64,000 nt of DNA from Sphingorhabdus sp. (GTDB taxonomy: Bacteria > Pseudomonadota > Alphaproteobacteria > Sphingomonadales > Sphingomonadaceae), in assembly GCF_023910635.1 (NCBI RefSeq), contig NZ_JAAVVZ010000007.1:1-64000 (forward strand), written 5' to 3'. The notes beneath the pieces are model-generated. The model ran no database searches. It was not told where the DNA came from and saw only the letters and a program-made list of their open reading frames with translations. Position 1 is the stretch's first letter; every line of letters starts with the position of its first letter. A program made the translations under genes and the position numbers. Positions 3,438 through 24,002 of this stretch are shown here, piece after piece.

Positions 3438-4592
3438 GTGACAGCGCAGCATGAATCGGCGGCAAACGCTTCGCGCCTGTCGCGATTGCTTGGGTTCCTC
3501 GAAAGCGATCCTGAAAATCTGAGCCTGATTGCCGACGCCGCCAATGCCGCGCTCGACGAATCAGCGCTCGATACCGTTGGCGAACTGGTCACACGCTATC
3601 GCGCACTCACAGACGTGCCGCCGCCCTTGCTGAATGTCGAAGGCATTGCGGCGATGCGGCAGGGGCGGCTTGATGAGGCGGTTGCCGCTTTTGGCGCGCT
3701 GCGCGCTGCGGGGCACGACGACCCTTCGGTCCGGTTCAATCTGGCATGGGCAGGCGCATTGCAACAAAGGCATGAAGATGTGCTGGAATTGCTCGACGAG
3801 GAAGTGGTCGCAACGGTTCCGCGCGCCGCTGGGCTAAAGGTGCAGACGCTCCACCATCTTGGGCGCATCGAGGATGCGATCGCGGCAGGGCAAGGGATGG
3901 CGGAGATTTATCCCAAGGACAATCATCTGCTCGGTGCATTGTCGGTGGCGGCGATGGATTCCGATGATTTCGAACTTGCACGGCATTATGCGACGCGCGC
4001 CGACGGCGGTTCGGATGCGCTAACCACGCAGGGGCTGATCAGCTTGCACGACGATGCGCCTGGCGCTGCGCTTAGCCTGTTCGATCGCGCGCTTGCAGAA
4101 CACCCCGACGCACCTCGCGCCTGGCTCGGTAAGGGATTGAGCCTGCTTTCGCAAGGCGATCTTGACGCTGCTGCGCCATGCCTCGACAAGGGTGCGGAAA
4201 TTTTCGGCGACCATCTGGGTTCGTGGATTGCGTCGGGCTGGACGCATTTCATCCGGAAGGATCTCGGCGCGGCGCGGCGCAGCTTTGAAACGGCATTGGC
4301 GCATGACGATAACTTTGCCGAAACCCACGGGGCATTGGCGGTGCTTGATATCGCCGAAGGCAATACCGATCGCGCACGCCGAAGGACCGATATCGCGTTG
4401 CGGCTCGACAAGGAATGTTTCGGCGGAATTCTTGCGCGCACATTGTTGCTGGAAATGGACGGCAAACCGGAGTTGGCGACGAAAATCCGCGAGCGTGCTA
4501 TGAACACGCCGATGGGAATCGACGGCAAGACCCTGGCACAGGCGCTGATTGGGCTGGGGATGCATTCGGGCAGCGGCAGAGGCAACGCATGA
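3438..4592 (+). CDS. Tetratricopeptide-repeat protein at the head of the flagellar operon
   Basis: The frame is open from a TTG at 3393, but the GTG at 3438 has a purine-rich GGGGAGGGGAA just upstream and gives MTAQHESAANASRLSRLLGF, so I choose it. The product (about 384 residues) is built of helical TPR-like pairs (for example GIAAMRQGRLDEAVAAFGAL, LALDHDDNFAETHGALAVLD-type units) without signal peptide or catalytic motif, so it is probably a cytoplasmic scaffold. Its stop is two bases before the fliQ ATG, so it is cotranscribed with the flagellar genes. A second TPR protein lies at the operon's far end (23047), which suggests both assist the export apparatus. No specific family name is justified. 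Confidence 0.75.
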   Translation: MTAQHESAANASRLSRLLGFLESDPENLSLIADAANAALDESALDTVGELVTRYRALTDVPPPLLNVEGIAAMRQGRLDEAVAAFGALRAAGHDDPSVRFNLAWAGALQQRHEDVLELLDEEVVATVPRAAGLKVQTLHHLGRIEDAIAAGQGMAEIYPKDNHLLGALSVAAMDSDDFELARHYATRADGGSDALTTQGLISLHDDAPGAALSLFDRALAEHPDAPRAWLGKGLSLLSQGDLDAAAPCLDKGAEIFGDHLGSWIASGWTHFIRKDLGAARRSFETALAHDDNFAETHGALAVLDIAEGNTDRARRRTDIALRLDKECFGGILARTLLLEMDGKPELATKIRERAMNTPMGIDGKTLAQALIGLGMHSGSGRGNA

Positions 4593-4593
4593 C

Positions 4594-4860
4594 ATGACTC
4601 AGGGCCAGGCGCTTGATTTCATGAACCAGCTGATGTGGCAGGCGATGATTATCGCAGGCCCCATATTGGCGGCGATCCTGCTCGTCGGCCTTGTCGTCAG
4701 TGTGTTGCAGGCAACGACGCAGCTGCAGGAAATGACGCTCAGCTATGTTCCCAAGATGCTGGTCGCCGGGCTGCTTCTGATCTTTCTCGGGCCCTGGATG
4801 GTCGGGCGCATGATGCAGTTTGCGATTTCGCTCATCCGCACGATTCCCAGTCTCGGATAG
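4594..4860 (+). CDS. fliQ: Flagellar export gate protein FliQ
   Basis: The 88-residue product has two hydrophobic helices (MIIAGPILAAILLVGLVVSV and MLVAGLLLIFLGPWMVG) separated by the conserved polar loop TQLQEMTLSYVPK. This is the signature of FliQ/SctS, one of the core subunits of the FliP5Q4R1 export gate in the inner membrane. The start MTQGQALDFMNQ lies two bases after the TPR gene stop; an upstream ATG (4549) would add an unrelated 15-residue extension. The order fliQ-fliR-flhB-flhA is contiguous here. Family membership is clear from length and loop sequence. Confidence 0.95.
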   Translation: MTQGQALDFMNQLMWQAMIIAGPILAAILLVGLVVSVLQATTQLQEMTLSYVPKMLVAGLLLIFLGPWMVGRMMQFAISLIRTIPSLG

Positions 4861-4868
4861 CGACATCT

Positions 4869-5630
4869 ATGGGGGGCAACAGTCTGGAAATCTGGGTGAC
4901 GTCCTGCGTGCTGCTTAGCCTCAGGATCACGCCCGTATTCCTGTTCGCGCCGCCGTTCACGCTCACCCGAGTGCCTAAATTGTTCACTGGGTTGATGGGC
5001 ATGGGGCTATCGGCCATCTTGGTAAGTGCTTATCCGGATGCTGCGCTCGTCGATAATGCTTCGGCCTCAACCTTACTGATTGGCGGCGTACGCGAATTAT
5101 TTATGGGGCTGGTGCCGGTTGTTGTCCTGCAATTGATGTTCGGCGGCCTCTATTTGACCGGGCGGACGATAGATATTCAGGCTGGGTTCGGGCTTGCACT
5201 CGTTATCGATCCCACAACGCGAGGGCAGACGCCTTTGATGGGAACGCTGTTCGCCTATCTTGCCGGTGCGACCTTTTTTGCGATGAACGGGCATCTCGAT
5301 TTGCTCCGCTTTTTTGCGGCCTCGCTGGAGGCTGTGCCGTTGGGCAGCGCCAATGAATATGCGCCGCTGTCGCGGATAACTTCTTATGTTTTTGTCGTGT
5401 CGCTGATTGCGCTTGGCGTCGGGGGTGCGGTGATCTTGGCGCTATTTCTGACAGATATCGTCATTGCCATGCTGTCGCGCACTGTGCCGCAAATGAATGC
5501 ACTTTTGCTCGGCATTCAGGTCAAGGCGATCGTCGTACTGGCAGTCATGCCGGTTGCGATTGGCGTTGCTGGCGCGCTGCTTGCGCGCCTGGTTGCCAAC
5601 GCGCTAAGCGCAATGCCCAGATTGCTCTGA
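4869..5630 (+). CDS. fliR: Flagellar export gate protein FliR
   Basis: A 253-residue polytopic membrane protein. Visible hallmarks are LRITPVFLFAPPFTLTRVP near the N-terminus, GRTIDIQAGFGLALVIDP in the middle and the C-terminal helices with QMNALLLGIQVKAIVVLAV. FliR/SctT is the single-copy subunit that closes the export gate and contacts FlhB. The ATG at 4869 is eight bases after the fliQ stop and gives MGGNSLEIWV, aligning well with other FliR starts. The gene ends four bases before flhB. Confidence 0.95.
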   Translation: MGGNSLEIWVTSCVLLSLRITPVFLFAPPFTLTRVPKLFTGLMGMGLSAILVSAYPDAALVDNASASTLLIGGVRELFMGLVPVVVLQLMFGGLYLTGRTIDIQAGFGLALVIDPTTRGQTPLMGTLFAYLAGATFFAMNGHLDLLRFFAASLEAVPLGSANEYAPLSRITSYVFVVSLIALGVGGAVILALFLTDIVIAMLSRTVPQMNALLLGIQVKAIVVLAVMPVAIGVAGALLARLVANALSAMPRLL

Positions 5631-5633
5631 CCG

Positions 5634-6698
5634 ATGGAAGAAGCCGAACTTGACAAGTCGGAAGAAGCAACTCCCTTCAAACTGAAGCGCGCGCGGGAAA
5701 AGGGCGCGGTCGCACGAAGTCTCGATCTTGGCTTTTTTGCGTCGGTCGCAGCGGCGCTTGGCTTCTTCTGGATCGGCGGCACCGAGCTGGCGTTTTCTAT
5801 CGCGCATTCGTCTGGTCAGGCCTTTGCTGCAGGCCCCTCTTTGGTCGACGGCCAAAGTGCATTGCTCTCGGTTATCGGCAGAGTATTTTCGCCAGTCGTT
5901 TTTCCGCTGATGGCATTTGCTGGCAGTCTGTTTGCAATCGCGCTCGTGCTGGATTTTTTGCAGGTAGGGCCGGTTTTTAGCGCAACACCGCTCAAACCCG
6001 ATTTCGGAAGAATTAATCCCGCCAAAGGCTTGAAGAGATTGTTTTCGTGGCGGTCGGTGATTGAGGCGTTTAAAGCACTTTTCAAACTGGCTGTCTATTC
6101 AACCATCGCATGGCTGGTCATTGGCGGGGCGATCAACGAGGGTGGCCAAGCGATCAGCGATGGTGCGCGGCTGGCCGGGGTCATCCTGTCTGCGACATTG
6201 CGGCTGATCATGTTTTGCGCGTTGGCAGCCCTCGGCTTTGCAGCCTTGGACCAGATTTTTGTGCGCCGGGAGTTTGCGAAGAAAATGCGAATGAGCAGGC
6301 GCGAGTTGAAGCGCGAACATCGCGACCGCGAGGGGGAACCGCGAATGAAACAGGCGCGCAAGCAACTCCACTCCGAATTTTCAAAGGTCGCCAAGAGCCT
6401 GCGTGATGTAAAGGGTGCCGATATCATCATCACGAACCCGGAGCATTTTGCCGTGGCTCTGCGCTATGATGCAAACAGGATGGCAGCACCCAAAATAGTT
6501 TCGCGCGGCGCGGGCGGCATGGCGCAAAGGATCAAGCGGATCGCGTTTACATTTGGCGTGATCACCGTTCGCGAACCGGCGCTTGCGCGGCAGCTTTTTT
6601 ACAAGGGTCGTCTCGCGCAGGAAATTCCGGATGATTTTTACCAACATGTTGCCGACCTATATCTTCGTCACAACATAAAAGCTAAGGTCCCAGCCTGA
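5634..6698 (+). CDS. flhB: Flagellar export switch protein FlhB with NPEH instead of NPTH
   Basis: The 354-residue protein begins with the typical DKSEEATPFKLKRAREKG amphipathic segment, then four membrane helices (about residues 32-56, 84-112, 150-168, 184-206) and a cytosolic domain. FlhB switches the exporter from rod/hook to later substrates after self-cleavage between N and P of an NPTH motif. Here the motif reads N268-P269-E270-H271 (codons 6435-6446), so the usual Thr is Glu. The Asn and Pro required for the chemistry are kept, but the effect on cleavage rate or switching is unknown. The stop overlaps the flhA start in TGATG (6696-6700), implying translational coupling. Confidence 0.95.
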   Translation: MEEAELDKSEEATPFKLKRAREKGAVARSLDLGFFASVAAALGFFWIGGTELAFSIAHSSGQAFAAGPSLVDGQSALLSVIGRVFSPVVFPLMAFAGSLFAIALVLDFLQVGPVFSATPLKPDFGRINPAKGLKRLFSWRSVIEAFKALFKLAVYSTIAWLVIGGAINEGGQAISDGARLAGVILSATLRLIMFCALAALGFAALDQIFVRREFAKKMRMSRRELKREHRDREGEPRMKQARKQLHSEFSKVAKSLRDVKGADIIITNPEHFAVALRYDANRMAAPKIVSRGAGGMAQRIKRIAFTFGVITVREPALARQLFYKGRLAQEIPDDFYQHVADLYLRHNIKAKVPA

Positions 6699-8734
6699 TG
6701 TTCAAGCGTCTTCTCGCCAATAACAACGATCTCTTCCTCGTCGGAGGGATGATTGGGATATTGATGATCCTGTTCGCGCCGATACCGACGTCGCTTCTCG
6801 ATTTTCTGATCATCCTCAATTTCTCTTTCGCGATGACCATTTTGATGCTGACATTCTATGTCAGCAAGCCGGTCGAGTTCTCGACATTTCCCTCTTTGCT
6901 GCTTGTAGCCACCTTATTCCGCCTCGCTCTGAATGTGGCGGCAACTCGCCTAATCCTTACCGACGGCGATGCAGGAGAGGTGATCGGCTCGGTCGGGACC
7001 TTTGCGATCCAGGGCAGCTTCGTCATCGGCCTTGTCGTTTTTTTAATTCTGATTATCGTGCAGTTTGTGGTTGTGACGTCAGGCGCGCAACGCGTGTCCG
7101 AAGTTGCCGCGCGGTTTACGCTGGACGCCGTACCCGGCCAGCAGATGAGCATCGATGCCGATCTCAATATGGGCCTAATCGATCAGGATGAAGCAAAGGC
7201 GCGGCGCAAAGCGCTGGAGAAGGAAACATCTTTCTACGGCGCCATGGATGGGGCAAGCAAATTTGTGAAGGGCGATGCCATCGCCAGCATCATTATCGTG
7301 CTGATCAACATGATCGCCGGCTGGATCATCGGCGTTTCGCAGCGTGGCCTAGAATGGGGTGAGGCGCTTCAGCAATATACGCTGCTGACCATCGGCGACG
7401 GTATTGTCACTCAGGTACCGGCACTTATTATCTCGGTCGCGACCGGTATTATTGTTACGCGCTCCGCCGCTGACCGGCAACTGAGTACCGAAATACTGGC
7501 GCAGCTGGGGTCGGTCCCGAAGATATCGCTCATCGTGATGACCGCTTTGTTCTTTTTGCTGCTGCTCCCTGGAATGCCCAAATGGCCAATCATTATCTTG
7601 CTACTGTTATTTGCGGCTGCCTGGTTCGCCGCGCGTGGCAAGGCGAAAGCGGCGCAGACTCCGGACGATGAAGCTTTTGATGCTGCGGCCGATGCTATCG
7701 TCGGAGCAGCCGCCATGAAACCTGCCGCTATTAGCGTTGGCTTGGGCAAGGATCTGGCCGAGGCATGGCTGCCAATGAAGCCGGTTATTGCCGAGCGCAT
7801 TACGGCACTGCGGAAGCAGCGGGCTGAGTCGACGGGGCTGACGATTCCAGCGGTAATCATCGAGGACGGCAATAATCTGGGTGGTAATGATTATGAGGTG
7901 AAGTTGTTCGGCACCGTATATGCCCGTGCTAATGTGCAGCCTGAAATGATTTTAGCCATTCGGTCGAATTCGTCGAGAGATGGTTTGACCGGCATTGAAG
8001 CGCGCGATCCGGCTTTCGGCCTGCCTGCGCTTTGGATCAATAATGAGCAGCGGGACAAGGCGCAGGGCCTTGGTTTCACGCTGGTCGATCCGATCACCGT
8101 GCTGATGACTCATCTTGGCGAAATCGTAAGGAGCGAGGCCGCATTGCTGCTGACGCGTAACGATGTGGTGGCGATGTTGGAGGGTGTGCGGAACCGGCAG
8201 GCGGGGCTCGTCGAAGAACTTGTTCCAAACATCATGTCGGTCTCCGACATTCAGCGCGTTTTGCAGAACTTGGCTAACGAAGAGGTTGCGATCCGCAACA
8301 TCGATCTGATTTGTGAAGCACTCGTGGATGTCGGGCGGCTGACGAAAGATCATGGCGAGCTCACCGAACTCGTTCGCCAGAAACTGAGCTACATCATTTG
8401 CAACGATCTGAAAGGTACGAACCAGCAATTGTCGGTGCTGAGTCTCGACCCCCGGATTGAGGCGCAAATTACCGACGCCATTAACCGCAGCGAAGGTGGC
8501 AGTTCGATGATCATTGAGCCGCGCCTTGCAGAATCGATTATGCGTAAAATAATTCCGCTTGTCGACGCGATGACACAGCAGGGTGTGGCGCCCGCACTGT
8601 TGTGCGGTCCATCAATACGGCGACAGCTCAAGTCATTCTTGCGCCGAACTGCGCCCCGACTTGCGGTGATTTCGGTGAATGAAGTACCGCAATCAATAGA
8701 TTTGCGTTCTTTCGACATATTAAAGAGTGAATAG
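6698..8734 (+). CDS. flhA: Flagellar export component FlhA
   Basis: The 678-residue product has about eight N-terminal membrane segments followed by a cytoplasmic domain. Conserved motifs are SFPSLLLVATLFRLALNVA-type sequence (here TFPSLLLVATLFRLALNVAA), VPGQQMSIDADLNMGLIDQD and the loop with KFVKGDAIASIII. FlhA forms the nonameric ring that docks chaperone-substrate complexes and couples proton flow to export. The length is normal for the family (about 690). The gene overlaps flhB by one base, and a 51-base AT-rich gap separates it from flgF, the longest break inside the operon. Confidence 0.96.
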   Translation: MFKRLLANNNDLFLVGGMIGILMILFAPIPTSLLDFLIILNFSFAMTILMLTFYVSKPVEFSTFPSLLLVATLFRLALNVAATRLILTDGDAGEVIGSVGTFAIQGSFVIGLVVFLILIIVQFVVVTSGAQRVSEVAARFTLDAVPGQQMSIDADLNMGLIDQDEAKARRKALEKETSFYGAMDGASKFVKGDAIASIIIVLINMIAGWIIGVSQRGLEWGEALQQYTLLTIGDGIVTQVPALIISVATGIIVTRSAADRQLSTEILAQLGSVPKISLIVMTALFFLLLLPGMPKWPIIILLLLFAAAWFAARGKAKAAQTPDDEAFDAAADAIVGAAAMKPAAISVGLGKDLAEAWLPMKPVIAERITALRKQRAESTGLTIPAVIIEDGNNLGGNDYEVKLFGTVYARANVQPEMILAIRSNSSRDGLTGIEARDPAFGLPALWINNEQRDKAQGLGFTLVDPITVLMTHLGEIVRSEAALLLTRNDVVAMLEGVRNRQAGLVEELVPNIMSVSDIQRVLQNLANEEVAIRNIDLICEALVDVGRLTKDHGELTELVRQKLSYIICNDLKGTNQQLSVLSLDPRIEAQITDAINRSEGGSSMIIEPRLAESIMRKIIPLVDAMTQQGVAPALLCGPSIRRQLKSFLRRTAPRLAVISVNEVPQSIDLRSFDILKSE

Positions 8735-8785: not shown

Positions 8786-9499
8786 GTGACTATGGGTAGA
8801 CTGATGGATATAGGAGTGTCTGTTCTTTCGCAAGCCGAGCGGCGGGTGGAAATTGCAGCGCAAAACCTCTCAAATTCGACAACTCCGGCATATAAACGCC
8901 GAGTCGCTTTTTCGGCATTGGTTGAATCGACTGACAGCCAGTCTACACCCCTGCCACGTGTTGCCGCTGCCATCGATTTTCGCAATGGTAAGCTTGTTGA
9001 AACTGGTAGTCCGTACGATCTGGCGTTAGCAGGCGCGGGATATTTCGCCGTCCGCTACGACGACCGGATCAGCTATACACGGCGCGGACAATTTTCGGCC
9101 GACGCTGACGGTCGGCTGGTCGATGACCGTGGCGGCGTCCTGCAATTCGCCAATGGAACCGATGCGATGGTCGAAAGTGATAAGTTCGCTGTTGCCAGCA
9201 ATGGTGCGGTTACCGAAGCCGGCTTGCTTCGGGGCAGGATCGGCGTTTTCGACGCGGATGACCAGGCCGCCTTGGAGGCATCGGAGGGCGGCTTTGCTGC
9301 GGGGAATGCCACCCTGACGTTGCTCGACGATGCTGCGGTACAGCAGGGTGCATATGAAGCGTCTAACGTAACCACCGGTGATGAAATGGTCTTGATGATG
9401 GAAGCACTACGCCGTGCCGAGGCCGGGCAGCGTGTGATCAATGTCTATGATGATCTGATGGGGCGGGCGGTTACCAGTTTTGGGGAGAATGTGCGATGA
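8786..9499 (+). CDS. flgF: Flagellar proximal rod protein FlgF
   Basis: The roughly 237-residue product has an N-terminal rod/hook signature (SQAERRVEIAAQNLSNSTTPAYKR) and the C-terminal partner helix (GAYEASNVTTGDEMVLMMEALRRAEAGQRVIN). These two helices form the coiled coil of axial proteins. Its place just before flgG and its shorter length indicate FlgF. The start is ambiguous: GTG 8786, ATG 8792 or ATG 8804 are all in frame and none has a strong ribosome site. It overlaps flgG by four bases. Confidence 0.88.
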   Translation: MTMGRLMDIGVSVLSQAERRVEIAAQNLSNSTTPAYKRRVAFSALVESTDSQSTPLPRVAAAIDFRNGKLVETGSPYDLALAGAGYFAVRYDDRISYTRRGQFSADADGRLVDDRGGVLQFANGTDAMVESDKFAVASNGAVTEAGLLRGRIGVFDADDQAALEASEGGFAAGNATLTLLDDAAVQQGAYEASNVTTGDEMVLMMEALRRAEAGQRVINVYDDLMGRAVTSFGENVR

Positions 9500-10269
9500 A
9501 CGGTGCCTTTTACATCGGCGCGACAGGCTTACAGGCCCAGCAACGCGGGTTGGACGTTATCGCCAACAATGTGGCCAATATCAACACGACCGCGTTCAAG
9601 CGATCGGAGATTCGCTTCTCCGAAATGGTCATGCGCTCTTCGGTCAGCGAGGATTCCGAGCAACTCAACATTGCCCTCCCAGATGCCTTGTCTGGGGTCG
9701 AGGCGCGGATATCTCCGCGCATTTACGAACAGGGCGATTTGCGTCGGACCGGCAAGCCCTTCGATCTTGCGATAAGCGGCGACGGCTTTGTCGAGGTGCT
9801 GGGTCCGGGCGGCCAGGTCTGGCTGTGGCGCGGCGGCGCATTTCAGGTGAACGCCGACGGCTTGCTCGAAACGGAGAATGGAATGACGTTGCGCGCATTG
9901 ATCGAGGTACCCGACGATGCCGGTGAAATCCGCATAGAACCCGATGGCCGCGTTCTGGCCCAAGTGGCGGGCGAAGAAGTTCCCGTTGTACTGGGCAATA
10001 TCAGCATCGCGATGCCCGAAGATGTGCACACATTGGAGCCGGTAGGGAGTGGCTATTTCCGCGCCGCCGATGACGAGCAATTGCGAATCTTCGAACCGGG
10101 TGAGCAGGGCAAGGGCGTGTTCGTCCAACGCGCGCTCGAAGCGTCAAACGTCGACCTGAGCTCTGAAATGGTAACACTGCTTTTGATGCAGCGCGCATAT
10201 GGCGCAAACGCACAAATCGTTCAAGCAGGTGATCAGCTGATGGCAATTGCCAACGGGCTGCGACGATAA
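9496..10269 (+). CDS. flgG: Flagellar distal rod protein FlgG
   Basis: The product is 257 residues with the typical N-terminus GLQAQQRGLDVIANNVANIN, a central domain containing RRTGKPFDLAISGDGFVEV, and the C-terminal heptad helix LEASNVDLSSEMVTLLLMQR. FlgG builds the distal rod that passes through the P and L rings. The start ATG overlaps the flgF stop (ATGA-type junction), suggesting coupled translation. The length agrees with FlgG of other species (about 260). Confidence 0.94.
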   Translation: MNGAFYIGATGLQAQQRGLDVIANNVANINTTAFKRSEIRFSEMVMRSSVSEDSEQLNIALPDALSGVEARISPRIYEQGDLRRTGKPFDLAISGDGFVEVLGPGGQVWLWRGGAFQVNADGLLETENGMTLRALIEVPDDAGEIRIEPDGRVLAQVAGEEVPVVLGNISIAMPEDVHTLEPVGSGYFRAADDEQLRIFEPGEQGKGVFVQRALEASNVDLSSEMVTLLLMQRAYGANAQIVQAGDQLMAIANGLRR

Positions 10270-14848: not shown

Positions 14849-15251
14849 TCAGGCATTGCGGCGGATGGTCGCGCGGATGCCATCCATGGCAAAAGCCGAC
14901 TTCGACGCGATCATGGAGGATCTTTCTGACCAGCAGAGTGTCAAGGTGCTGGCGTTGCTGAAAGAACTCGAAGGCAGCCACGTCGAGGATATCGCCGCTA
15001 ATGAGCTACAGCCGCACCATACCCCGCTTATCGTACCGGACAATTTGTCGTCATGGCTGGTGGCACGGGTCAATGGTAATCCAGCGGCCGGCGATGAGGT
15101 GGTCGAACAATTTTCGATGACACAACATGCAATTTCGGAATTGCGGGTTTGTGCCGCCGAGTTGGTACCCCAGCCTGAAACCGGGACCAAACGACCCTCG
15201 CTTCTCGATCAGCTGTTCCGCCGCTTTATCGGCCACAGGGTTGCAGCATGA
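14835..15251 (+). CDS. Unrecognised 138-residue protein in the fliG position
   Basis: This gene sits exactly where fliG is normally found, between fliF and fliH, but encodes only about 138 residues. I choose GTG 14835 because AGGGGGG lies 8 bases upstream; an in-frame ATG at 14814 would overlap fliF by 35 bases and lacks a ribosome site. The first part is helical (DQALRRMVARMPSMAKADFD, then SDQQSVKVLALLKELEG), vaguely like one armadillo unit of FliG, while the rest (SWLVARVNGNPAAGDEVVEQ) is not FliG-like. The charged torque helix and EHPQ/GGPG motifs of FliG are absent. It may be an adaptor between FliF and the C-ring or export stator; no function is claimed. It overlaps fliH by four bases. 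Confidence 0.6.
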   Translation: MERSDQALRRMVARMPSMAKADFDAIMEDLSDQQSVKVLALLKELEGSHVEDIAANELQPHHTPLIVPDNLSSWLVARVNGNPAAGDEVVEQFSMTQHAISELRVCAAELVPQPETGTKRPSLLDQLFRRFIGHRVAA

Positions 15252-17298: not shown

Positions 17299-17725
17299 GA
17301 CGCTCGCCTCGATTGCGGGGATTAGGGCGATTGCGGCAAGGCTGGCGGAGGCCAAATGCGTAGCGGCGGACCGTGATGTTGTTGCTGCCAAACGTAAGCA
17401 GAAGCAGCAGCAGGATCATCTTGAGCTTACGGTGAGTGGTTGGGAACGGGCCATCGGGGCATCGACGTTCGACCCGGCGAGCAACGGCTTTTGGGGTCAT
17501 GCCATTAACAACTCCGTTGCTGAGGTCGAAATAGCCGGGGACAATGTTGCGCAAAAAAACGGCGTTCTAAACAGGGCTCGGTCTCAGTTGTCAGTCATGA
17601 TCGCCAACGAGAGATGCGCTCATTCCTTGCTTTCAAAAGCCCGAAAAAAGCGGCTCAGCGAAATCGAAGACCGGCATTTGGCCGAACAGGCCGACCGGAT
17701 TACGCGACTGGAAATGCGGCGATGA
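17273..17725 (+). CDS. fliJ: FliJ-like coiled-coil export protein
   Basis: The 150-residue product from ATG 17273 (GGGGAG eleven bases upstream) is rich in charged helical sequence (RLAEAKCVAADRDVVAAKRK, and a C-terminal LSKARKKRLSEIEDRHLAEQ). FliJ is a small coiled coil that acts as stalk in the FliI ring and is poorly conserved. The position directly after fliI and overlapping its last 26 bases supports this identity. The internal Trp/Gly segment (WERAIGASTFDPASNGFWG) is unusual for FliJ, so it might have an extra binding surface. Confidence 0.72.
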   Translation: MSRSRRRVETLASIAGIRAIAARLAEAKCVAADRDVVAAKRKQKQQQDHLELTVSGWERAIGASTFDPASNGFWGHAINNSVAEVEIAGDNVAQKNGVLNRARSQLSVMIANERCAHSLLSKARKKRLSEIEDRHLAEQADRITRLEMRR

Positions 17726-18417
17726 CGATAATAGCCGAACGCCAGTTACATGCTGCGTCGCAGCAAGGACCAATTCGTTCGCGTGCTGGCGATCAATCTT
17801 TTGCCTGGCGAATCGAGGCGGGCGACCGCGCTAAAGATATCATAAAGGATAAGGCGCTGGGCTTTTCAGAGGTAGGTTTGCTCGGCCTTCATTATGCACA
17901 TGATTTATCAAACAATGTGGCAGACCAATCGGGCTCGATAAGTGGAACGGATTTTACGCCGGAGGCAATGGTCCCGACCAGCGCAAACCCGACCGGCGCA
18001 AAACTTTTTGAAAGTGCGTTGATAATATCTGACAATGAAACTGTATTGATCAACGTGCCCCGAAACCGCGGCGAGACTAGCGGTAGTGTAAATGCAACAG
18101 AGCCGAATCGATCCTTACAAAATCTCGCACCTTCATTACCTTCGTTAGAGATTAAGGTCGTTGGCCTCGATGAGACGGCAAATGAATTGCCGTCACCCGT
18201 TTCGAAAATATTCCAAAAGGTTATATCACAAAGCTGCCCCGGCAGTAAATTCGGTTTAACGGTCATCGAAACACCCCACGGAATTTCGATAATCTGCAAA
18301 GAATTGGCTGTTTCAGAAAATGAAATTCAAGAATTAAACGACCTTGCGGAACAAATTGCGAAGGATTTCGGCGTGACACTTCGGCGTCTCGTCGTTAATG
18401 GAAAAAACAACGTTTAG
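17722..18417 (+). CDS. Unrecognised protein in the hook-length (fliK) position
   Basis: The ATG at 17722 overlaps the fliJ stop (ATGA) and gives 231 residues. The sequence has a Ser/Asn-rich, probably disordered middle and a folded-looking end (GSKFGLTVIETPHGISIICK, then EIQELNDLAEQIAKDFGVTL). It lies between fliJ and flgD, where fliK usually is, and FliK proteins share this disordered-plus-C-terminal-domain layout. I cannot find the FliK C-terminal leucine pattern with certainty. The AT content is higher than in neighbours. Best reading: fast-evolving FliK-like hook-length regulator. Confidence 0.5.
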   Translation: MTIIAERQLHAASQQGPIRSRAGDQSFAWRIEAGDRAKDIIKDKALGFSEVGLLGLHYAHDLSNNVADQSGSISGTDFTPEAMVPTSANPTGAKLFESALIISDNETVLINVPRNRGETSGSVNATEPNRSLQNLAPSLPSLEIKVVGLDETANELPSPVSKIFQKVISQSCPGSKFGLTVIETPHGISIICKELAVSENEIQELNDLAEQIAKDFGVTLRRLVVNGKNNV

Positions 18418-18425: not shown

Positions 18426-18827
18426 ATGGCACTTGCACCGACATCATCAACGGGCGCTACGGCGCAAAATGCTTTTGGTTTGGAGTTTCAGTCGCTCCTT
18501 CGCATAATTCTGACTCAGCTCACCTATCAGGATCCGCTAAAGCCGCTGGAAAACAGCGAATTCGTTTCGCAACTCGCGCAATTCTCGCAGCTTCAGCAAA
18601 CGCAGTCGCTCAACGACCAGATTACAAGCCTGCTGTCGGCGCAGTCGGCGACGCAAGCGACGGCATTGCTGGGCAAAACGATCGATGTGAGTGCTGGCGC
18701 GTCAACTGTCTCGGGTGAAGTAAAGTCCGTTTCGTTTACGTCCGGGCAACCCACGGTGACCATACAGACGGCAACCGGGCAGACGATTTCCAACCTTTCA
18801 ATCGCAAATATTGCGCAAGTTCGCTGA
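18426..18827 (+). CDS. flgD: Hook cap scaffold FlgD, short form
   Basis: The perfect AGGAGG at 18417-18422 precedes ATG 18426. The N-terminal FlgD signature FGLEFQSLLRIILTQLTYQD-PLKPLENSEFVSQLAQFSQL is intact. After LLGKTIDVSAGASTVSGEVK the protein ends in one short beta domain at 133 residues, whereas typical FlgD has about 220 with an additional FnIII-like domain. FlgD caps the growing hook and is discarded when hook assembly ends. The missing domain suggests a minimal version, as found in some alphaproteobacterial systems. Confidence 0.9.
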   Translation: MALAPTSSTGATAQNAFGLEFQSLLRIILTQLTYQDPLKPLENSEFVSQLAQFSQLQQTQSLNDQITSLLSAQSATQATALLGKTIDVSAGASTVSGEVKSVSFTSGQPTVTIQTATGQTISNLSIANIAQVR

Positions 18828-18839: not shown

Positions 18840-20033
18840 ATGTTAGGAGCAATTTACACGGGGCTGAGCGGGCTGAATGCTTTCAGCAAGGGCCTGCAGA
18901 CGATTAGTAATAACGTGGCTAACTTGAATTCGCCCGGGTTCAAGGCGACCTCGACAAACTTCAGCGACATATTCAGCTATGGCGGCGGCGGGCTGACATT
19001 TTTCCGCGGGTCTGACAATGTTCAGGTCGGAAATGGGGTCCGCTTTGGCGACCCGCGAACTGATTTCAGCCAAGGCGATTTGCGCCAGTCGGAAGGCGAT
19101 CTTGATCTCGGCATTCGGGGCAGCGGTTTCCTTGTTTTGTTGAACAACGGCAAAACCTATTATGCCCGCACTGGCCAGTTCGTAGTCGATAAAGACGGCT
19201 TTATTTCGCAACAGGGCGACAGCGGTTACCGGCTCGGCGTGCTTGATAGTTCGGGCAGGGCAGTGGCGCTCAACATTGACACGCGGCGCACCAGCGCACC
19301 GGTGGCGACCACGACGATCAAATTTGCCGACAACCTTTCCTCGTCTGCGACGACGGCAACGGTCGCCGATTTGGCAGTTTACGACGCGCAAGGCGGCAAG
19401 CAGACCTGGCAGGTCAAGTTCGACAAGGCTCCCAATACGCAAGGCGAATGGACGGTAACCGTGACCGATCAGACCGGCACGAATCTGGGTACCTCTGCGC
19501 TGAAATTCACGGGCAGCGCGGTTGATCCGACCACCCAAAAACTGACTTTCACATCCACTTCGCCGGGCGGGACTCCGCTCTTGGTCGTGCTCGATTTCTC
19601 ATCAGGCGTAACGTCGTTTTCGGCGGGAACGACATCGACCCTGCGATCGGCTTCGATCGACGGTAACGGCGTTGGTGCGCTTTCGGGCGTTACCGTAGAT
19701 GCAGAGGGCCAGGTCAAGCTCACTTATTCAAACGAGAAAACCGATCTGTTGGGTGCCGTTGCAATCGCCGATTTCCGCGACCCTCAGCAGTTGCGCCGGG
19801 TCGGCGGCGGTCTATTCGAAAATAACGGTTCAGGCCCGACCCGAGTTATCGCCAGCAATACCGATGGCGTGGGCCGTCTTGTTTCCAAACAGATCGAGGC
19901 ATCGAACGTCGATCTGTCGCAGCAATTTGGCGATCTCATTCTGATTCAGCGCGGCTTTCAGGCATCCTCTCAGGTCGTCAGTGCGACCAATGACATGATC
20001 CAGCAATTATTTGGAATCCGAGGTCAGGGTTGA
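18840..20033 (+). CDS. flgE: Flagellar hook protein FlgE
   Basis: A 397-residue axial protein: N-terminus MLGAIYTGLSGLNAFSKGLQ with TISNNVANLNSPGFKAT; the D1 segment GDLRQSEGDLDLGIRGSGFL; central FlgE domain; and C-terminal helix IEASNVDLSQQFGDLILIQR. FlgE polymerises into the hook, the universal joint of the flagellum. Ribosome site GAGGAG at about 18826-18831. A real hook gene argues that this is a flagellum-type rather than an injectisome system even though no filament genes are present. The stop overlaps the next TTG start. Confidence 0.94.
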   Translation: MLGAIYTGLSGLNAFSKGLQTISNNVANLNSPGFKATSTNFSDIFSYGGGGLTFFRGSDNVQVGNGVRFGDPRTDFSQGDLRQSEGDLDLGIRGSGFLVLLNNGKTYYARTGQFVVDKDGFISQQGDSGYRLGVLDSSGRAVALNIDTRRTSAPVATTTIKFADNLSSSATTATVADLAVYDAQGGKQTWQVKFDKAPNTQGEWTVTVTDQTGTNLGTSALKFTGSAVDPTTQKLTFTSTSPGGTPLLVVLDFSSGVTSFSAGTTSTLRSASIDGNGVGALSGVTVDAEGQVKLTYSNEKTDLLGAVAIADFRDPQQLRRVGGGLFENNGSGPTRVIASNTDGVGRLVSKQIEASNVDLSQQFGDLILIQRGFQASSQVVSATNDMIQQLFGIRGQG

Positions 20034-20824
20034 CGCAAGAACATAGCGACTGGTTACCCTTTGACGCGCTGACCAGTCCCGCCGTTACATCTGCCTTCGA
20101 ACCGGTAGTCACCGCTTGGTCGCAGCGCTGGTTCGGTGCCCGCCCGTTCGAACTCGCACGCGTTCGCTCCCAACAAGGTGGCCGGTCTTTGAAATCCGCC
20201 AAAGCTGAATGGCGTGCCTTTGGGCATGGCATTTTCATCGATTGCGCAGAGAAAACGCAACTCGCGGTTGCCGGGCATGCGTTACATATGTCCAGCCGCG
20301 AGCATAAGTTGTCCAGCGATGACGAAGGCCTGATGTTGCTTTTTTCTGAGCGGATCACAGCTGATCTCGCTAGCGGTATGGCTGGAATAGTCGGTGATGA
20401 AAAAGGTCCGAGGCAAACTTCGACCTCAGGTCATCCGTTCGAACATAGCGGTGGCTTGGAGCTGCAGATTAGCGGAGGACCGGATTCGACGATAATGGTC
20501 GGCATTTCTTCGTCTGCTTTGACCAGATTACGCAAGTCGCAGTGCAGCCGCCATGTGCCTCAAAGAATACCGGATGTATCGATTGTAGACGTCCTGAGCC
20601 CAGTGAATGTGCGCTATTTAGCTGACATCGGCTGCGCCACTATGTCTGCGCTCGATCTGCATAACATGACGCACGGCGACGTCGTCATACTAGATCGGGT
20701 TTTGACGGATCCGATTGAAATAAAAGCAGAAAGTTCGGGCCGCCTACTTTTGACAGCAGTGCTTAGACAAAATGAAGGGCGCCTAGAACTCACTGCCCAC
20801 AAATTTGAAGGAAGTGAAACGTGA
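20030..20824 (+). CDS. fliM: FliM-like C-ring protein, shortened
   Basis: The 264-residue product starts with TTG at 20030, overlapping the flgE stop. The C-terminal part has an SpoA-like pattern (VLSPVNVRYLADIGCATMSA, MTHGDVVILDRVLTDPIEIK, then a final strand set) as in FliM/FliN. The N-terminal part lacks the canonical CheY-binding LSQxEIDALL motif; only LPFDALTSP is vaguely similar, and the GGXG motif used to bind FliG is not recognisable. Position before fliN-fliO-fliP supports FliM. It likely forms the cytoplasmic ring but may not interact with a FliG. Confidence 0.7.
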   Translation: MTQEHSDWLPFDALTSPAVTSAFEPVVTAWSQRWFGARPFELARVRSQQGGRSLKSAKAEWRAFGHGIFIDCAEKTQLAVAGHALHMSSREHKLSSDDEGLMLLFSERITADLASGMAGIVGDEKGPRQTSTSGHPFEHSGGLELQISGGPDSTIMVGISSSALTRLRKSQCSRHVPQRIPDVSIVDVLSPVNVRYLADIGCATMSALDLHNMTHGDVVILDRVLTDPIEIKAESSGRLLLTAVLRQNEGRLELTAHKFEGSET

Positions 20825-21165
20825 TAAAGTCCGAAGCCAAATCCGACACCGAAACTGTTGATCGAGTTGCCGAAAAAAAAATGATGGCTGGTGAGAAGTC
20901 AATTGCTGCCGAGAAAGCGATTGAACGGCTGGACCCCGAGATTTTTGGCGATGTCAAAGTCGAATTGATGGCAAGCCTCGGCAGGGGCAAACTGACAGTA
21001 AGCGAACTTGTCAATCTCGCAAGCGATATGGTGGTCCCACTCGATACCCCGCTGAACGGGCTTGTCGAACTTAAATTCAAGGAACATGTTGTCGCCAGAG
21101 GAGAAATTGTCTCGGTTGGCGATCAGTTTGGCGTTCGGATCTCGGAAATTGTTGCGCGCAAATAG
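20821..21165 (+). CDS. fliN: C-ring protein FliN
   Basis: A 114-residue protein whose C-terminal 65 residues match the SpoA domain of FliN: LMASLGRGKLTVSELVNLAS, then PLNGLVELKFKEHVVARGEI and VSVGDQFGVRISEI. The N-terminal 50 residues are charged and helical. FliN builds the bottom of the C-ring and binds FliH, helping dock export substrates. The GTG start overlaps the fliM stop. FliN alone can support an export platform without rotation. Confidence 0.92.
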   Translation: MIKSEAKSDTETVDRVAEKKMMAGEKSIAAEKAIERLDPEIFGDVKVELMASLGRGKLTVSELVNLASDMVVPLDTPLNGLVELKFKEHVVARGEIVSVGDQFGVRISEIVARK

Positions 21166-21167: not shown

Positions 21168-21542
21168 ATGCGAATCCGGGCCATCCATAGCGTAGCAATT
21201 CTGTCTGCCCTGTTGGCGCATGCCCCGATTCAGGCACAGCAGCTGGCGCAAGGTGGTGGGGTGGAAATTTCCGTATGGCGGGTGGTATTTTCATTCCTGT
21301 TTTGCATCACGCTTGCCGCCGGTGCAATATTCGCGCTCAGGCGCAAATTGCCGACGAGTACCCTGTTTAAGCGGGTTGGGGCTGACAGGCTGAAGCTGGT
21401 CGAGCAGATTTCGCTGGGACCGCAGCGGGGCATCTATCTGATCGAACTCGACGGAAAAGAATATCTGGCTTTATTCTCGCAGCAGGGGGCGAGTTTGACC
21501 CCGACAGGTGGCGCACCCGTCGTGACGGGTACCGACGAATGA
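21168..21542 (+). CDS. fliO: Flagellar export gate chaperone FliO
   Basis: The 124-residue product has a signal-like N-terminus ending APIQAQ, a membrane helix (VWRVVFSFLFCITLAAGAIF) and a cytosolic beta tail with RLKLVEQISLGPQRGIYLIE, the usual FliO/FliZ pattern. FliO assists assembly of FliP rings. It is placed directly before fliP and overlaps it by four bases. The short form is typical of Alphaproteobacteria. Confidence 0.88.
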   Translation: MRIRAIHSVAILSALLAHAPIQAQQLAQGGGVEISVWRVVFSFLFCITLAAGAIFALRRKLPTSTLFKRVGADRLKLVEQISLGPQRGIYLIELDGKEYLALFSQQGASLTPTGGAPVVTGTDE

Positions 21543-22273
21543 GCCGGTCCGTGGCGCGGTTCGGCGCAATTTTCCTTGCATGCATGTTGGCGATTGGATT
21601 GTCTGGCAATGCTTTTGCGCGACCGCTGGACAGCGCGCTTCCTGCTGATTCAACCGAACTGGTGCGTACGGCATTGCTCCTCGGGCTGATGGCATTCATC
21701 CCCTCGATAGTCATCTGCATGACGTCGTTCGTGCGTATCGTGATTGTCCTGTCTATGATCCGTCATGCGCTGGGCATGCCGGAGACGCCGCCGAACTCAG
21801 TGTTGGTTAGCCTTGCGCTGTTTCTGACGGCGCTGTCGATGGCGCCGACGATGCAGAATGTTGCCGACAACGGTGTTCAGCCTTTCCTCGCTGGCAAGAT
21901 ATCGATTGAAACGGGAATGGAAAGGGCTAGCGCGCCGTTGCGGGAGTTCATGTTAAGGCAGGTTCGGGACAAGGATCTGAAAACGGTGTACGCTATCGCT
22001 AAAGAGCCCTTGCCGCCTTCCGCCGCCGACGTCGGTTTGATGCAGCTGACACCGGCCTTCATGCTCAACGAACTGCGGACGGCATTTACCATTGGCTTTG
22101 TCATACTGCTGCCTTTCCTTTTAATTGATCTCGTGGTCTCCGCCATATTGCTGTCGCTGGGAATGCTAATGGTTCCGCCGGCGACGATATCACTGCCGCT
22201 CAAAATTCTGATGTTTGTATTGATTGATGGTTGGAGTCTAATATTGGAAGGGGTGCTGGGAAGCTTCCGATAG
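21539..22273 (+). CDS. fliP: Flagellar export gate protein FliP
   Basis: A 244-residue inner-membrane protein with cleavable signal peptide (ending NAFARPL) and characteristic segments: MTSFVRIVIVLSMIRHALGM, PETPPNSVLVSLALFLTALS, LMQLTPAFMLNELRTAFTIG, and the final LGMLMVPPATISLPLKILMF. FliP forms the pentameric heart of the export gate with FliQ and FliR. Unusually, fliP lies at the opposite end of the operon from fliQ-fliR, an order that differs from fliPQR clusters. Its stop is two bases from the sigma factor start. Confidence 0.96.
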   Translation: MSRSVARFGAIFLACMLAIGLSGNAFARPLDSALPADSTELVRTALLLGLMAFIPSIVICMTSFVRIVIVLSMIRHALGMPETPPNSVLVSLALFLTALSMAPTMQNVADNGVQPFLAGKISIETGMERASAPLREFMLRQVRDKDLKTVYAIAKEPLPPSAADVGLMQLTPAFMLNELRTAFTIGFVILLPFLLIDLVVSAILLSLGMLMVPPATISLPLKILMFVLIDGWSLILEGVLGSFR

Positions 22274-22275
22274 CG

Positions 22276-23040
22276 ATGGCAGCGCGCTCGCCTTTACCCG
22301 TGGGTCCATCGCCCCAAATACCGGAGGAAGAAGCCGCGCTGTGGGATGCTTGCAAGCTGCAAAATTCTGCAAAAGCGCGCGAGCGGCTTTTTTTGCGGTA
22401 TCTGCCGTTGGCAAAACGAATTTCTGCTCGATTTGTCCGTGACAATCATTCGACCCCGGTCGAATTTCAGGAGCTGTCGCAAATGGCAAGCACCGGCCTA
22501 CTTGAGGCCATCGACAATTTCAACCCGGCGCTTGGCGTCCCTTTCCGGTTTTACTGCCCTAGGCGAATTTCTGGTTCGATCCTCAACGGTCTTGCCAAAT
22601 TGAGCGAAGTGAATCACCAGATAAGCCTTCGTAAGCGTTTGGCGCGCGAACGCCTGCGGTCGATTTCTCATGACAATGCCAAGCCGAAAAAGATCGACGA
22701 TGCGCTCGATATTCTCGGCGATATTGCGGCTGAATTGGCATTGGGCATGATGCTCGACAGCAGCGCGATATATCAGGAAAGCGAGCGCGATCCTGCGAAA
22801 GATGCCTATGACACGTTGGTCTGGAAGCAGGCGATAGGACAGATGCGCCGCGAGCTGGAGGCGCTGCCGGAGCGTGATCGCGACGTACTGCGATATCATT
22901 ATCTTGAGTCAATGGGCTTTGACGAAATCGGCAATTTGTTGGGCGTAACTAAAGGGCGAATATCGCAAATTCACAAGGCGGCGATTGCATTGTTGCGAAA
23001 GCGGGTGTCTAATAATGGTAGGTTCAGGCTAGAAGGATAG
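22276..23040 (+). CDS. fliA: Flagellar sigma factor FliA (sigma-28 type)
   Basis: The 254-residue protein from ATG 22276 carries sigma region 2 (RERLFLRYLPLAKRISARFV, VEFQELSQMASTGLLEAIDN) and region 4 with a helix-turn-helix (LPERDRDVLRYHYLESMGFD, EIGNLLGVTKGRISQIHKAA). It is a sigma-70 family member of the FliA group. FliA normally transcribes late genes such as flagellin and motor genes, none of which is in the window, so it must act on distant promoters or on this cluster. It sits two bases after fliP and is part of the operon. Confidence 0.88.
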   Translation: MAARSPLPVGPSPQIPEEEAALWDACKLQNSAKARERLFLRYLPLAKRISARFVRDNHSTPVEFQELSQMASTGLLEAIDNFNPALGVPFRFYCPRRISGSILNGLAKLSEVNHQISLRKRLARERLRSISHDNAKPKKIDDALDILGDIAAELALGMMLDSSAIYQESERDPAKDAYDTLVWKQAIGQMRRELEALPERDRDVLRYHYLESMGFDEIGNLLGVTKGRISQIHKAAIALLRKRVSNNGRFRLEG

Positions 23041-23046
23041 GCGGGA

Positions 23047-23649
23047 ATGAGTGAGGGCTACGAAGCAGGCATATTGTGCCCCGACGATACGATGGCGTCG
23101 ATCGTCCGTCAGTTGCAAACCGATGACGCGGGCGGGCTTGCTACCATCGCAAGTATGCAGATCAGTTATCCGCTCGACCCGCGCCTGCATTTTGTTCGCG
23201 GCTCGGTTCTGGCCGGACTGCAACGATATGACGAGGGCCGCAGCGCGATGGCACGGGCAATCGAGATTGCACCGGATTATGCGCTTGCCCGTTTCCAGCT
23301 CGGGTTTCTCGACCTGACATCGGGCAGGGCGGTCGATGCTATCGGCGTATGGCAACCGTTGTTTAACCTTCCCGAAGACGAACCGCTCCGGATTTTTGCC
23401 GAAGGGCTCACCAATCTAGCGGGCGATAACTTTTCCGAGGCCCGACGGTTGCTGAATAAAGGCATCGAACTCAACACCGAAAACCCGCTTATCAGTACCG
23501 ACATGCAATTGATACTCGATGAAATCAAAGACAGCCCTCGGGCACCGTCAACCGAGATTTCACCAGACCAGTCAGTTCCGTCGTCCGCAGCGCATATGCT
23601 CTTGCAGCAATTTGAGCTGAAAGACAGCGTGAACGCCAAGAAGCACTGA
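23047..23649 (+). CDS. Small TPR protein after fliA
   Basis: A 200-residue protein with three TPR-like pairs: DPRLHFVRGSVLAGLQRYDE with GRSAMARAIEIAPDYALARF, then LGFLDLTSGRAVDAIGVWQP, and FAEGLTNLAGDNFSEARRLL. It has no signal peptide, so it is cytoplasmic. It shares its last base with the next gene start (ATGG after TGA overlap), so the two are translated together. Resembles export chaperone-type TPR proteins of type III systems; a role in holding a substrate or regulator is inference only. Confidence 0.72.
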   Translation: MSEGYEAGILCPDDTMASIVRQLQTDDAGGLATIASMQISYPLDPRLHFVRGSVLAGLQRYDEGRSAMARAIEIAPDYALARFQLGFLDLTSGRAVDAIGVWQPLFNLPEDEPLRIFAEGLTNLAGDNFSEARRLLNKGIELNTENPLISTDMQLILDEIKDSPRAPSTEISPDQSVPSSAAHMLLQQFELKDSVNAKKH

Positions 23650-24002
23650 TGGACCCGATTTCGAACACTGACCGCTTTGTTATTCTGTTGCGGCAGAAGC
23701 TGGCGGAGCGGGCACAGACGAAGAAGACTTCGCCTACTGCAGCAACGGATGCTAAACCAACGGTCAGTCATTACGCGGTGCGCGCGGTCGCTGGACGGAC
23801 CGCAAGGGCTGGTGTGGAAGACCGCAAATTGCGGCGGACCATTGTGGAACAATTATTGGTCGACCGCTTTGGCGCCGCGCTGGTCAACGAGGCCCGTTTT
23901 CAGCAGATTTTAGATCAAGTATCGGAGCTGATGGCGTCCGATCCGAATTTGGGCGACTTGTTCGCCGAAGTTATGGCCCACGTGCGAGCCAACGCTGCAT
24001 GA
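23649..24002 (+). CDS. Unrecognised 117-residue protein closing the flagellar operon
   Basis: The product begins MDPISNTDRFVILLRQKLAE, has a basic Thr/Ala-rich middle and a helical C-terminus (RKLRRTIVEQLLVDRFGAAL, ARFQQILDQVSELMASDPNL). I do not recognise a family. It is coupled to the TPR gene (overlap of one base). Because it ends the operon right after fliA and no flgM is seen, an anti-sigma or export-substrate role is conceivable, but nothing in the sequence proves this. It stops 16 bases before the guaA fragment, the left edge of the island. Confidence 0.6.
   Translation: MDPISNTDRFVILLRQKLAERAQTKKTSPTAATDAKPTVSHYAVRAVAGRTARAGVEDRKLRRTIVEQLLVDRFGAALVNEARFQQILDQVSELMASDPNLGDLFAEVMAHVRANAA

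Follow-up and report, generated by a model that had tools for sequence, protein, structure and literature searches.

A hook-basal-body operon of putative secretory function linked to giant YD/LysM toxin-like genes in Proteobacteria

The injectisome is known as a flagellum-derived secretion machine that does not rotate (Abby and Rocha, PMC3459982; this and the papers below are cited from excerpts of their text). The type III secretion system (T3SS) variant of Myxococcus, T3SS*, is needle-less and related to both flagellum and T3SS, is thought to be functional rather than decayed, and is required for prey lysis (PMC10433427); the Myxo systems lack FlgBCDEK, FliEG, FlgH and MotAB (PMC3459982). 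The variable regions of Flag-2 secondary flagellar loci contain Rhs or toxin genes (PMC6993521). Among the export routes of polymorphic toxins, the abstract of Zhang et al. 2012 (PMC3482391) gives type II, V, VI, VII, PVC, PrsW-dependent and MuF, with no flagellar route in that list, and other excerpts of the same paper mention toxin delivery by the T3SS and raise the question of an RNase encoded in flagellar operons of Firmicutes. Here we analyze a plus-strand operon at positions 3393-24002 of a 64,000-nucleotide stretch (the window) of a Sphingorhabdus sp. contig (NZ_JAAVVZ010000007.1), which holds genes for the export gate and ATPase of a flagellum, for rod, P and L rings and hook, and for a FliA-type sigma factor. 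From its gene content, we consider it probable that this operon specifies a non-rotary hook-basal body working as a protein-secretion machine, whose late substrate would be a giant polymorphic toxin instead of flagellin.

Judged by its genes, the operon specifies neither a rotary flagellum, three defining features of which it lacks, nor an injectisome, and it would operate in the manner of a type III secretion system derived from the flagellum. The operon shares with the bacterial flagellum the export gate, ATPase, MS ring, rod, P and L rings, hook cap, hook, FliN and the FliA-type factor. It differs in that FliG torque domain, stator, junction proteins, cap and flagellin are all missing from it, in its short FliF tail, in the added genes TPR1, TPR2 and orfZ, and in its linkage to a giant toxin-like protein where a flagellum would have a filament gene. 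With the injectisome it would share flagellum-derived secretion without rotation, as proposed here from the genes. Yet the operon retains rod, P and L rings and hook; flagellar models outscore injectisome models for its fliQ, fliR, flhB, flhA, fliF and fliP; and the short FliFs stand apart both from ordinary FliFs and from the single SctJ-like sequence that was tried. The Myxococcus T3SS* is the nearest idea, from which the operon differs by having FlgB, FlgC, FlgD, FlgE, FlgH and FliE. Flag-2 loci are likewise secondary and carry Rhs or toxin genes, but the excerpted text describes their cargo in single strains, VgrG included, whereas here one giant family recurs, and the window-type operon has no torque-domain FliG. 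No description of such a system was found in the literature searched, a coverage that left out bioRxiv and most subscription journals, nor in the excerpts of PMC9380563, PMC3459982, PMC12199754, PMC13063649, PMC3482391, PMC6993521 and PMC10433427. We lean, with some reserve, toward a broader view: that this would be an undescribed, Proteobacteria-wide secretion class that arose by a flagellum conversion independent of the injectisome, FliG having become a torque-less scaffold and the filament having given way to giant YD/LysM toxins acting between bacteria.

Gene content, the fliG slot and distribution of the operon

The genes run in the order listed below. The hook-basal-body set (rod, P and L rings, hook, export gate) was recognized with family models. 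Since fliR, flhB, flhA, flgF, flgG, flgA, flgH, flgB, flgD, fliO and the sigma factor score below the NCBIfam equivalog cut-offs, these are family assignments to diverged members; fliH, fliJ and fliK were called from position and from the same genes in related operons.

3393..4592, plus strand: TPR1, a system-associated TPR protein (Pfam TPR; also adjoins the operon in related loci)
4594..4860, plus strand: fliQ (TIGR01402, 90 bits, over cut-off; start inferred)
4869..5630, plus strand: fliR (TIGR01400, E 8e-33, below equivalog cut-off; start inferred)
5634..6698, plus strand: flhB (TIGR00328, 279.6 bits, below equivalog cut-off)
6698..8734, plus strand: flhA (TIGR01398, 724.7 bits, below equivalog cut-off)
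8786..9499, plus strand: flgF (best TIGR02490, below cut-off; TIGR03506 over cut-off)
9496..10269, plus strand: flgG (best TIGR02488, below cut-off; TIGR03506 over cut-off)
10273..10782, plus strand: flgA (TIGR03170, weak, 22.5 bits)
10767..11360, plus strand: flgH, L ring (NF001301, E 5e-38, below cut-off)
11342..12472, plus strand: flgI, P ring (NF003676, 358.6 bits, over cut-off)
12492..12839, plus strand: flgB (TIGR01396, 42.8 bits, below cut-off)
12842..13270, plus strand: flgC (TIGR01395, over cut-off)
13270..13572, plus strand: fliE (TIGR00205, over cut-off)
13583..14848, plus strand: short fliF, 421 residues (TIGR00206, over cut-off, aligned to residues 12-256 only)
14829..15251, plus strand: orfX, putative reduced FliG-like scaffold without FliG_C (family membership; fliG position)
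15248..15952, plus strand: fliH-like (position; 25-44% identity to the gene of related operons; no Pfam or NCBIfam match)
15886..17298, plus strand: fliI, ATPase (TIGR01026, over cut-off)
17228..17725, plus strand: fliJ-like (position; related operons; no NCBIfam match)
17614..18417, plus strand: fliK-like (position; related operons; no Pfam or NCBIfam match)
18426..18827, plus strand: flgD (NF007197, 89 bits, below cut-off)
18840..20033, plus strand: flgE, hook (TIGR03506, 248.8 bits, over cut-off)
20030..20824, plus strand: fliM-like, FliMN_C alone recognizable (PF01052, 21.3 bits, below cut-off)
20821..21165, plus strand: fliN (PF01052, 63.6 bits, over cut-off)
21168..21542, plus strand: fliO (TIGR03500, 38.6 bits, below cut-off)
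21539..22273, plus strand: fliP (TIGR01103, over cut-off)
22231..23040, plus strand: FliA/WhiG-type sigma factor (TIGR02479, E 8e-28, below cut-off; Sigma70_r2 and r4 over cut-off)
23047..23649, plus strand: TPR2, candidate chaperone (TPR; weak SctY chaperone likeness, E 0.003; in related loci)
23649..24002, plus strand: orfZ, conserved small protein, candidate chaperone or gatekeeper (14 members, in alphaproteobacterial-type loci)

Matches to orfZ were also found in the betaproteobacterial locus L132 and in L227, L230 and L237. Within the operon no flgK, flgL, fliD, fliC, motA or motB was found, nor a FliG_C domain or MotA-type stator; flagellin and junction or cap proteins were not found on the plus strand of the related loci either. 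The same assembly carries a complete flagellar set on another contig (C45), and its FliG, FliD, FlgK, FlgL, MotA, MotB, FliL, FliS, FlgJ and FliK proteins served as blastp queries against 3,836 open reading frames (ORFs), from both strands of the window and of the relatives G030 and G055 and from the plus strand of 67 named loci. Ten matches were returned, for the FlgK query only, and the eight of these that were listed are all to FlgE or FlgG. Secretin and needle models were absent from the matches of the scanned operon genes, a result for the locus only, without a genome-wide search, and PADLOC gave a weak ankyrin match and nothing more.

These results bear on the sequence-only reading of the window. 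Its inventory of export gate, ATPase, rod, P and L rings, hook and FliN is borne out by the family models, several of them below equivalog cut-offs. It had reported fliG, fliC, fliD, flgK, flgL, flgJ and motAB as absent, and this was again seen for all except fliG (the C45 FlgJ query had no match among the 3,836 ORFs), whose slot holds orfX. It had described FliM as lacking a recognizable FliG or CheY motif, and the FliM-like protein matches FliMN_C only, below cut-off; PF02154 did not match it, although the C45 FliM itself reaches 24.1 bits, below cut-off. Finally, it had FliF end about 34 residues after the second membrane helix without a FliG-binding tail. The tail is short, about 31 residues beyond the last hydrophobic segment, but it keeps one helix predicted by eye. 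Tails of 25-73 residues past this segment were seen in 65 of 67 FliF sequences (no segment was called in L051 and L099), and a helix of the type LS.AER.AAL..V..WL was common, by eye, in those of the beta- and gammaproteobacterial (beta/gamma) rows.

A profile iteration seeded by the window copy of orfX gathered 67 members, one per source, from 67 of 70 sources (the exceptions being L059, L069 and L104). The gene directly follows fliF in 63 of the 64 checked and lies 67 bases further in the remaining one; annotated Undibacterium and Burkholderia records label it 'hypothetical protein'. When the 48 beta/gamma members were aligned with a profile of 17 FliGs (hhalign), the match had 94.9% probability over FliG columns 15-193, corresponding to the N and M domains, and 17 other flagellar profiles, used as a control, gave at most 3.4%. 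In a comparison of a 31-row beta/gamma profile with solved-structure sequences, FliG provided the nine best matches, the best with E 5.1e-7 over chain residues 3-181. The best alignments stop near FliG column 193 or chain residue 181, and none reached the FliG_C torque domain. Ten members scanned against Pfam gave weak matches below cut-off, to FliG_N in three, FliG_M in two and FliG_C in two, and others such as MgtE_N. A phmmer search with the C45 FliG returned nothing in the 3,836 ORFs. Thus, fliG appears to be reduced and diverged, not absent, with loss of the torque domain demonstrated by the alignments for the beta/gamma members and inferred for the window copy.

Dozens of Alpha-, Beta- and Gammaproteobacteria carry related operons, and a scan of the named genomes yielded 67 loci. 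The architecture recurs over three classes and is thus not a product of chance. In 17 alphaproteobacterial-type sources, which include Novosphingobium, Caulobacter, Asticcacaulis and Sphingorhabdus and some of which break off at a contig end, the block that starts at flgF or flgB and runs to fliP, with the sigma factor, TPR2 and orfZ, is largely common and FliF has 400-432 residues. The fliQ-fliR-flhB-flhA gate block lies upstream in ten of them. For the other seven, gate genes were seen beyond the 3' end in the genomes of three: L053 (G123), where all four adjoin the giant gene, L055 (G103; fliQ and part of fliR) and L107 (the start of flhA). They were not found in the available stretches of L048, L052, L054 and L065, nor in those of L083. 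The beta/gamma loci, among them those of Collimonas, Ramlibacter, Variovorax, Burkholderia, Chromobacterium and Hahella, have largely the same gene order and a FliF of 464-530 residues (L109 is cut).

In a set of 99 relatives (genus, family and order of the source, the source included) the FliF query matched 61 genomes, and a high-scoring short FliF (at least 235 bits) was present only in the source, G030 and G055; low-scoring FliF frames of under 500 residues were seen in G051 (98 bits), G002 (76.5 bits) and G083 (30 bits). A first FliF tree of 96 rows was divided by a branch with an SH-aLRT of 99 (quick method) into 68 short FliFs and 28 ordinary ones, the latter all from the source's order. 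When 16 ordinary FliFs of 548-681 residues from operon-bearing alpha-, beta- and gammaproteobacterial genomes and one SctJ-like row were added, the 68 remained on one side with support of 93. Inside the short-FliF group of the first tree the alpha, beta and gamma rows mostly cluster with their own class. The trees argue for an old, kept system.

Giant YD/LysM genes beside the operon

The flanks of the operons contain very long YD-repeat frames, and the two that were scanned carry RHS_repeat and LysM. A profile built from five rows, covering the LysM domain and the following segment of the giants (A1), matched 27 of 28 operon genomes, or 22 of 23 when the five that supplied rows are excluded. 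In 18 of the 28 (G055, G100 to G114, G116 and G123) the match lies 12-31 kb from FliF on the same contig; for G116 and G123 the two contigs were equated by their equal lengths. The linkage was seen on contigs of 1.9-6.2 Mb (G123, G112, G362) as well as on plasmids. In the source genome full-length A1 matches lie approximately 119-123 kb from FliF, also on the same contig. Among the 99 relatives, scores above 200 bits were obtained for all three operon carriers and for none of the 96 others, seven of which gave weak partial giant matches of up to 71 bits; the chance of picking those three of 99 is 1 in 156,849, by a hand count that ignores kinship. A sample of 397 Pseudomonadota genomes, in each of which no more than four candidates were scored, produced five matches at E 1e-30 or better, namely the source, G389, G362, G425 and G467, and the operon is close to the giant in G389, G362 and G425, that is, in three of the four carriers other than the source. 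In G123 divergent gate genes (L215:2-4112) lie between orfZ and the giant gene, which makes gate and toxin direct neighbors.

Where both ends lie within the sequence fetched, the giants have 3,329 to 5,282 residues. They share the N-terminus MVAIVTGNGLGL...GE..YVNAATGNLVLQ, in which no Sec signal was visible by eye, without a predictor, and they contain LysM and Gly/Ala-rich segments. Toxin-type Pfam domains were found in eight of ten C-termini scanned (out of 15 giants at hand), seven of them over cut-off, and were mostly of nuclease type: Tox-REase-7 in the source genome, Tox-URI2, GH-E in three, Tox-HNH-HHH and Col-Pyo_DNase. The C-terminus of L215 has a weak match to the zincin-type ATLF, and two of the ten gave no toxin-type domain in the Pfam scan. 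An ORF of at least 77 residues on the same strand directly follows 13 of the 15 giants, although such ORFs can arise by chance; L219 has only a 51-residue ORF and L218 none. Six of these downstream neighbors were scanned, and they gave SUFU twice and ankyrin once over cut-off, weak matches to Imm33 and HEAT, and in one case nothing. The GH-E C-termini of L209 and L211 (Ramlibacter pallidus and Paraburkholderia acidicola) are each followed by a SUFU-domain protein, likely a toxin-immunity pairing. With a conserved body, variable C-terminal toxin-type domains and an immunity-like gene downstream, the giants are, by these sequence features, predicted polymorphic toxins.

Rhs/YD polymorphic toxins of the type VI secretion system (T6SS) and Tc types have YD repeats and a C-terminal toxin with an immunity protein. 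The giants resemble them in the repeats, the C-terminal toxin-type domain and the immunity-like neighbor, but differ in their LysM and Gly/Ala-rich segments and in the linkage to a flagellar operon. They also differ in having no listed match to the Rhs core model TIGR03696: none of its listed places coincides with the giants, and the idea that these are canonical Rhs-core neighbors was rejected on this ground.

The window itself begins with two genes of this kind, upstream of the operon:

1..1350, plus strand: C-terminal piece of a giant YD/LysM-family putative polymorphic toxin with a lipase-like C-terminus, cut by the contig start
1350..2273, plus strand: ankyrin-repeat protein, candidate immunity protein, directly after the toxin piece (Ank_2, 32.9 bits, over cut-off)

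The first 58 residues of the toxin piece are 98% identical to a cassette of the same genome (L206:11034-12872), after which the two diverge, and 54 residues match residues 3521-3574 of the genome's own giant at 61%. Its matches to DUF637, Lipase_3 and Abhydrolase_6 are weak, all below cut-offs. The ankyrin protein has, by eye, a lipoprotein-like N-terminus, and in L221, too, the gene after the giant encodes an ankyrin protein. Further along the contig (G000, C56:126951-137421, minus strand) one long giant stands with shorter cassettes from its family, one of them interrupted by a stop, as is expected of polymorphic toxin arrays.

Many of the giant genes also carry a candidate promoter motif. 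For 11 of 13 giants the pattern [CT]TAAAC, 17 bases, GA(T/C/A) occurs in the 250 bases before the start, compared to a mean of 0.07 in dinucleotide shuffles; nine other spacings between 12 and 21 gave a count of 0, except for 1 at spacing 21. It matches TAAA-N18-GAT, which we take to be the spacing of sigma-28. CTAAAC-N17-GA was noticed by eye in five upstream regions and then tried on all 13; the figure of 11 therefore contains the discovery set, and the later counts matter. In a later set of 12 giants (four of the 16 fetched loci had no usable giant start) the motif was present at five, compared to a letter-shuffle mean of 0.06 and a top round of 2 of 12 in 300 rounds; three of these 12 come from first-set genomes, and two of those are among the five positives. 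Both giants beside operons on the Burkholderia ubonensis and Variovorax plasmids have it, as the sole match of the pattern in each 40-kb stretch. A scan with a FliA consensus gave nothing clear above shuffles. Many of the giant genes thus have a candidate promoter motif with sigma-28 spacing at their CTAAAC-N17-GA pattern, and we propose that the sigma factor of the operon may read it. In the Chromobacterium loci L071:15047, L099:19557 and L108:19581, CTAAAC-N17-GAT was seen 41-121 bases before a copy of flgH behind the sigma factor gene.

A proposed mechanism and its alternatives

From the recurrence of the operon, its linkage to the giants and the motif, we infer a course of export, folding outside the cell, killing and immunity. 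On completion of the hook, the FliA-type factor would switch on the giant toxin, which would occupy the regulatory slot of flagellin. The export apparatus would then thread the unfolded toxin through rod and hook, with TPR2 or orfZ as a possible chaperone or gatekeeper, and the YD cage and LysM domain would fold outside the cell. The C-terminal domain would act on competing cells, while the neighboring protein would protect the producer. The sequence-only reading had suggested a basal-body/hook machine that has ceased to rotate and might act in secretion, and this suggestion gains from the recurrence of the operon, from three of 17 operon genomes described below and from the linked giants. Were it true, flagella would have yielded a non-motile secretion machine more than once, the retained rod, rings and hook would leave an intermediate open to study in living cells, and polymorphic toxins would have an added delivery route. 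It would also caution against taking 'flagellar genes' on a chromosome or plasmid as a sign of motility.

Several observations weigh against the secretory reading. A chain of 4,000-5,000 residues is very long for the narrow channel of type III secretion. The Paracidovorax konjaci genome (G120) has no A1 match, and in eight of the 27 carriers (G030, G099, G115, G117, G118, G119, G121, G122) the match lies on another or an unassigned contig. The long giant gene of the source itself ends approximately 111 kb past the operon, on the same contig, and the giant frame of G467 has a stop, while the stretches that were read up to about 40 kb away contain no operon. Seven of the 12 later giants lack the motif, and the gate genes are not upstream in seven of the 17 alphaproteobacterial-type sources. 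The 19 other (alphaproteobacterial-type) orfX members, taken alone, gave no FliG signal (2%), so that only family membership and position make the window copy FliG-like. On the Undibacterium plasmid pUYM01 (L254, NZ_AP018442.1 129783-168629) the operon is found near a 38.8-kb tandem-95 repeat gene, and no YD giant was seen over the 40.6 kb that were read; the stretch has one match to the promoter pattern, elsewhere. The tandem-95 gene is possibly another class of giant substrate.

That plasmid also speaks for a device for attachment, in which the hook or a displayed giant YD/LysM protein would bind surfaces or cells, toxicity being secondary or absent. The retained hook genes agree with this, and LysM and YD repeats are frequent in surface proteins. 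We nevertheless regard it as unlikely, given the toxin-type domains in eight of ten C-termini, Col-Pyo_DNase, GH-E and Tox-REase-7 among them, and the two SUFU and one ankyrin protein among six neighbors scanned, which fit toxin-immunity pairs.

It is quite improbable, in our view, that the linkage is without function, toxin arrays and operon merely sharing mobile or variable islands and the giants leaving by another route. In the source genome both indeed stand on a contig (155,458 bases) with genes of F-type conjugation, TraG, TraH, TraN and TraU (window 51622-63091, minus strand), and toxin pieces occur as exchangeable cassettes. By eye, a relaxase-like and coupling-protein-like pair is also present (C56:120967-126868), and the contig has the appearance of a conjugative plasmid or an integrative element; the operon-bearing plasmid of B. 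ubonensis is typed as conjugative, MOBF/MOBP, MPF_F. The patchy spread among relatives fits such a conjugative setting. Against a chance sharing of islands stand the co-occurrence in the relatives and in the phylum sample, the sigma-28-spaced motif at many giant genes, and the linkage on the contigs of 1.9-6.2 Mb besides plasmids.

A second rotary flagellum, for which C45 would supply the missing FliG, MotAB and flagellin, is very unlikely. Sphingomonas sp. A1 is a strain with two flagellar sets. The sequence-only reading had allowed that genes elsewhere might complete the machine, and C45 does hold them: the single FliG_C, two Flagellin_N and single MotA_N matches of the assembly are all on this contig, which has fliE, a 551-residue FliF, fliG, fliH, I, K, L, M, N, O, P, Q and R, flhB, fliD, fliS, flgB to flgL, motA and motB (names partly by eye; flhA was not looked for there). 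Yet the C45 fliG adjoins its own FliF within a complete separate set, to whose proteins those of the window are approximately 26-45% identical at best matches, and the finding that would have refuted the sequence-only reading, a separate locus whose fliG pairs with the window FliF, did not emerge. The window operon is thus a second machine and not half a flagellum. In the 17 genomes behind the named loci, moreover, FliG_C and ordinary FliF occur in equal number in 17 of 17; open-frame length separates the two kinds of FliF except in G110, with a short FliF in a frame of 558 residues (502 in the locus comparison). A flagellum split over two loci was rejected on the position of the C45 fliG and this accounting. 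Three of the 17, Sphingorhabdus sp. Alg239-R122 (G102), Caenimonas koreensis (G108) and Ramlibacter pallidus (G109), have a short FliF only and no FliG_C, Flagellin_N or MotA_N match, in assemblies of unreported completeness; G108 also has a FliF-like match of 262-268 residues that may be an injectisome ring protein. These Sphingorhabdus, Caenimonas and Ramlibacter carriers make the question directly testable.

The least probable alternative is a decaying flagellar relic, which the diverged or shortened FliF, FliM-like and FliG-like proteins might suggest but which we rejected on the conservation over three classes and the grouping of the short FliFs, the frames being open, the gene order largely kept across alpha, beta and gamma lineages, and specific partners recurring.

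Other genes on the contig

A type II Cas9 gene is present on the operon's contig at window positions 42380-45589 on the plus strand (TIGR01865, 591 bits). A HerA-like helicase that resembles the anti-phage-associated HerA is encoded at 26922-28814 on the minus strand (223.6 bits, below cut-off), and a Fic-domain protein at 38557-39705 on the plus strand (53.7 bits, below equivalog cut-off).

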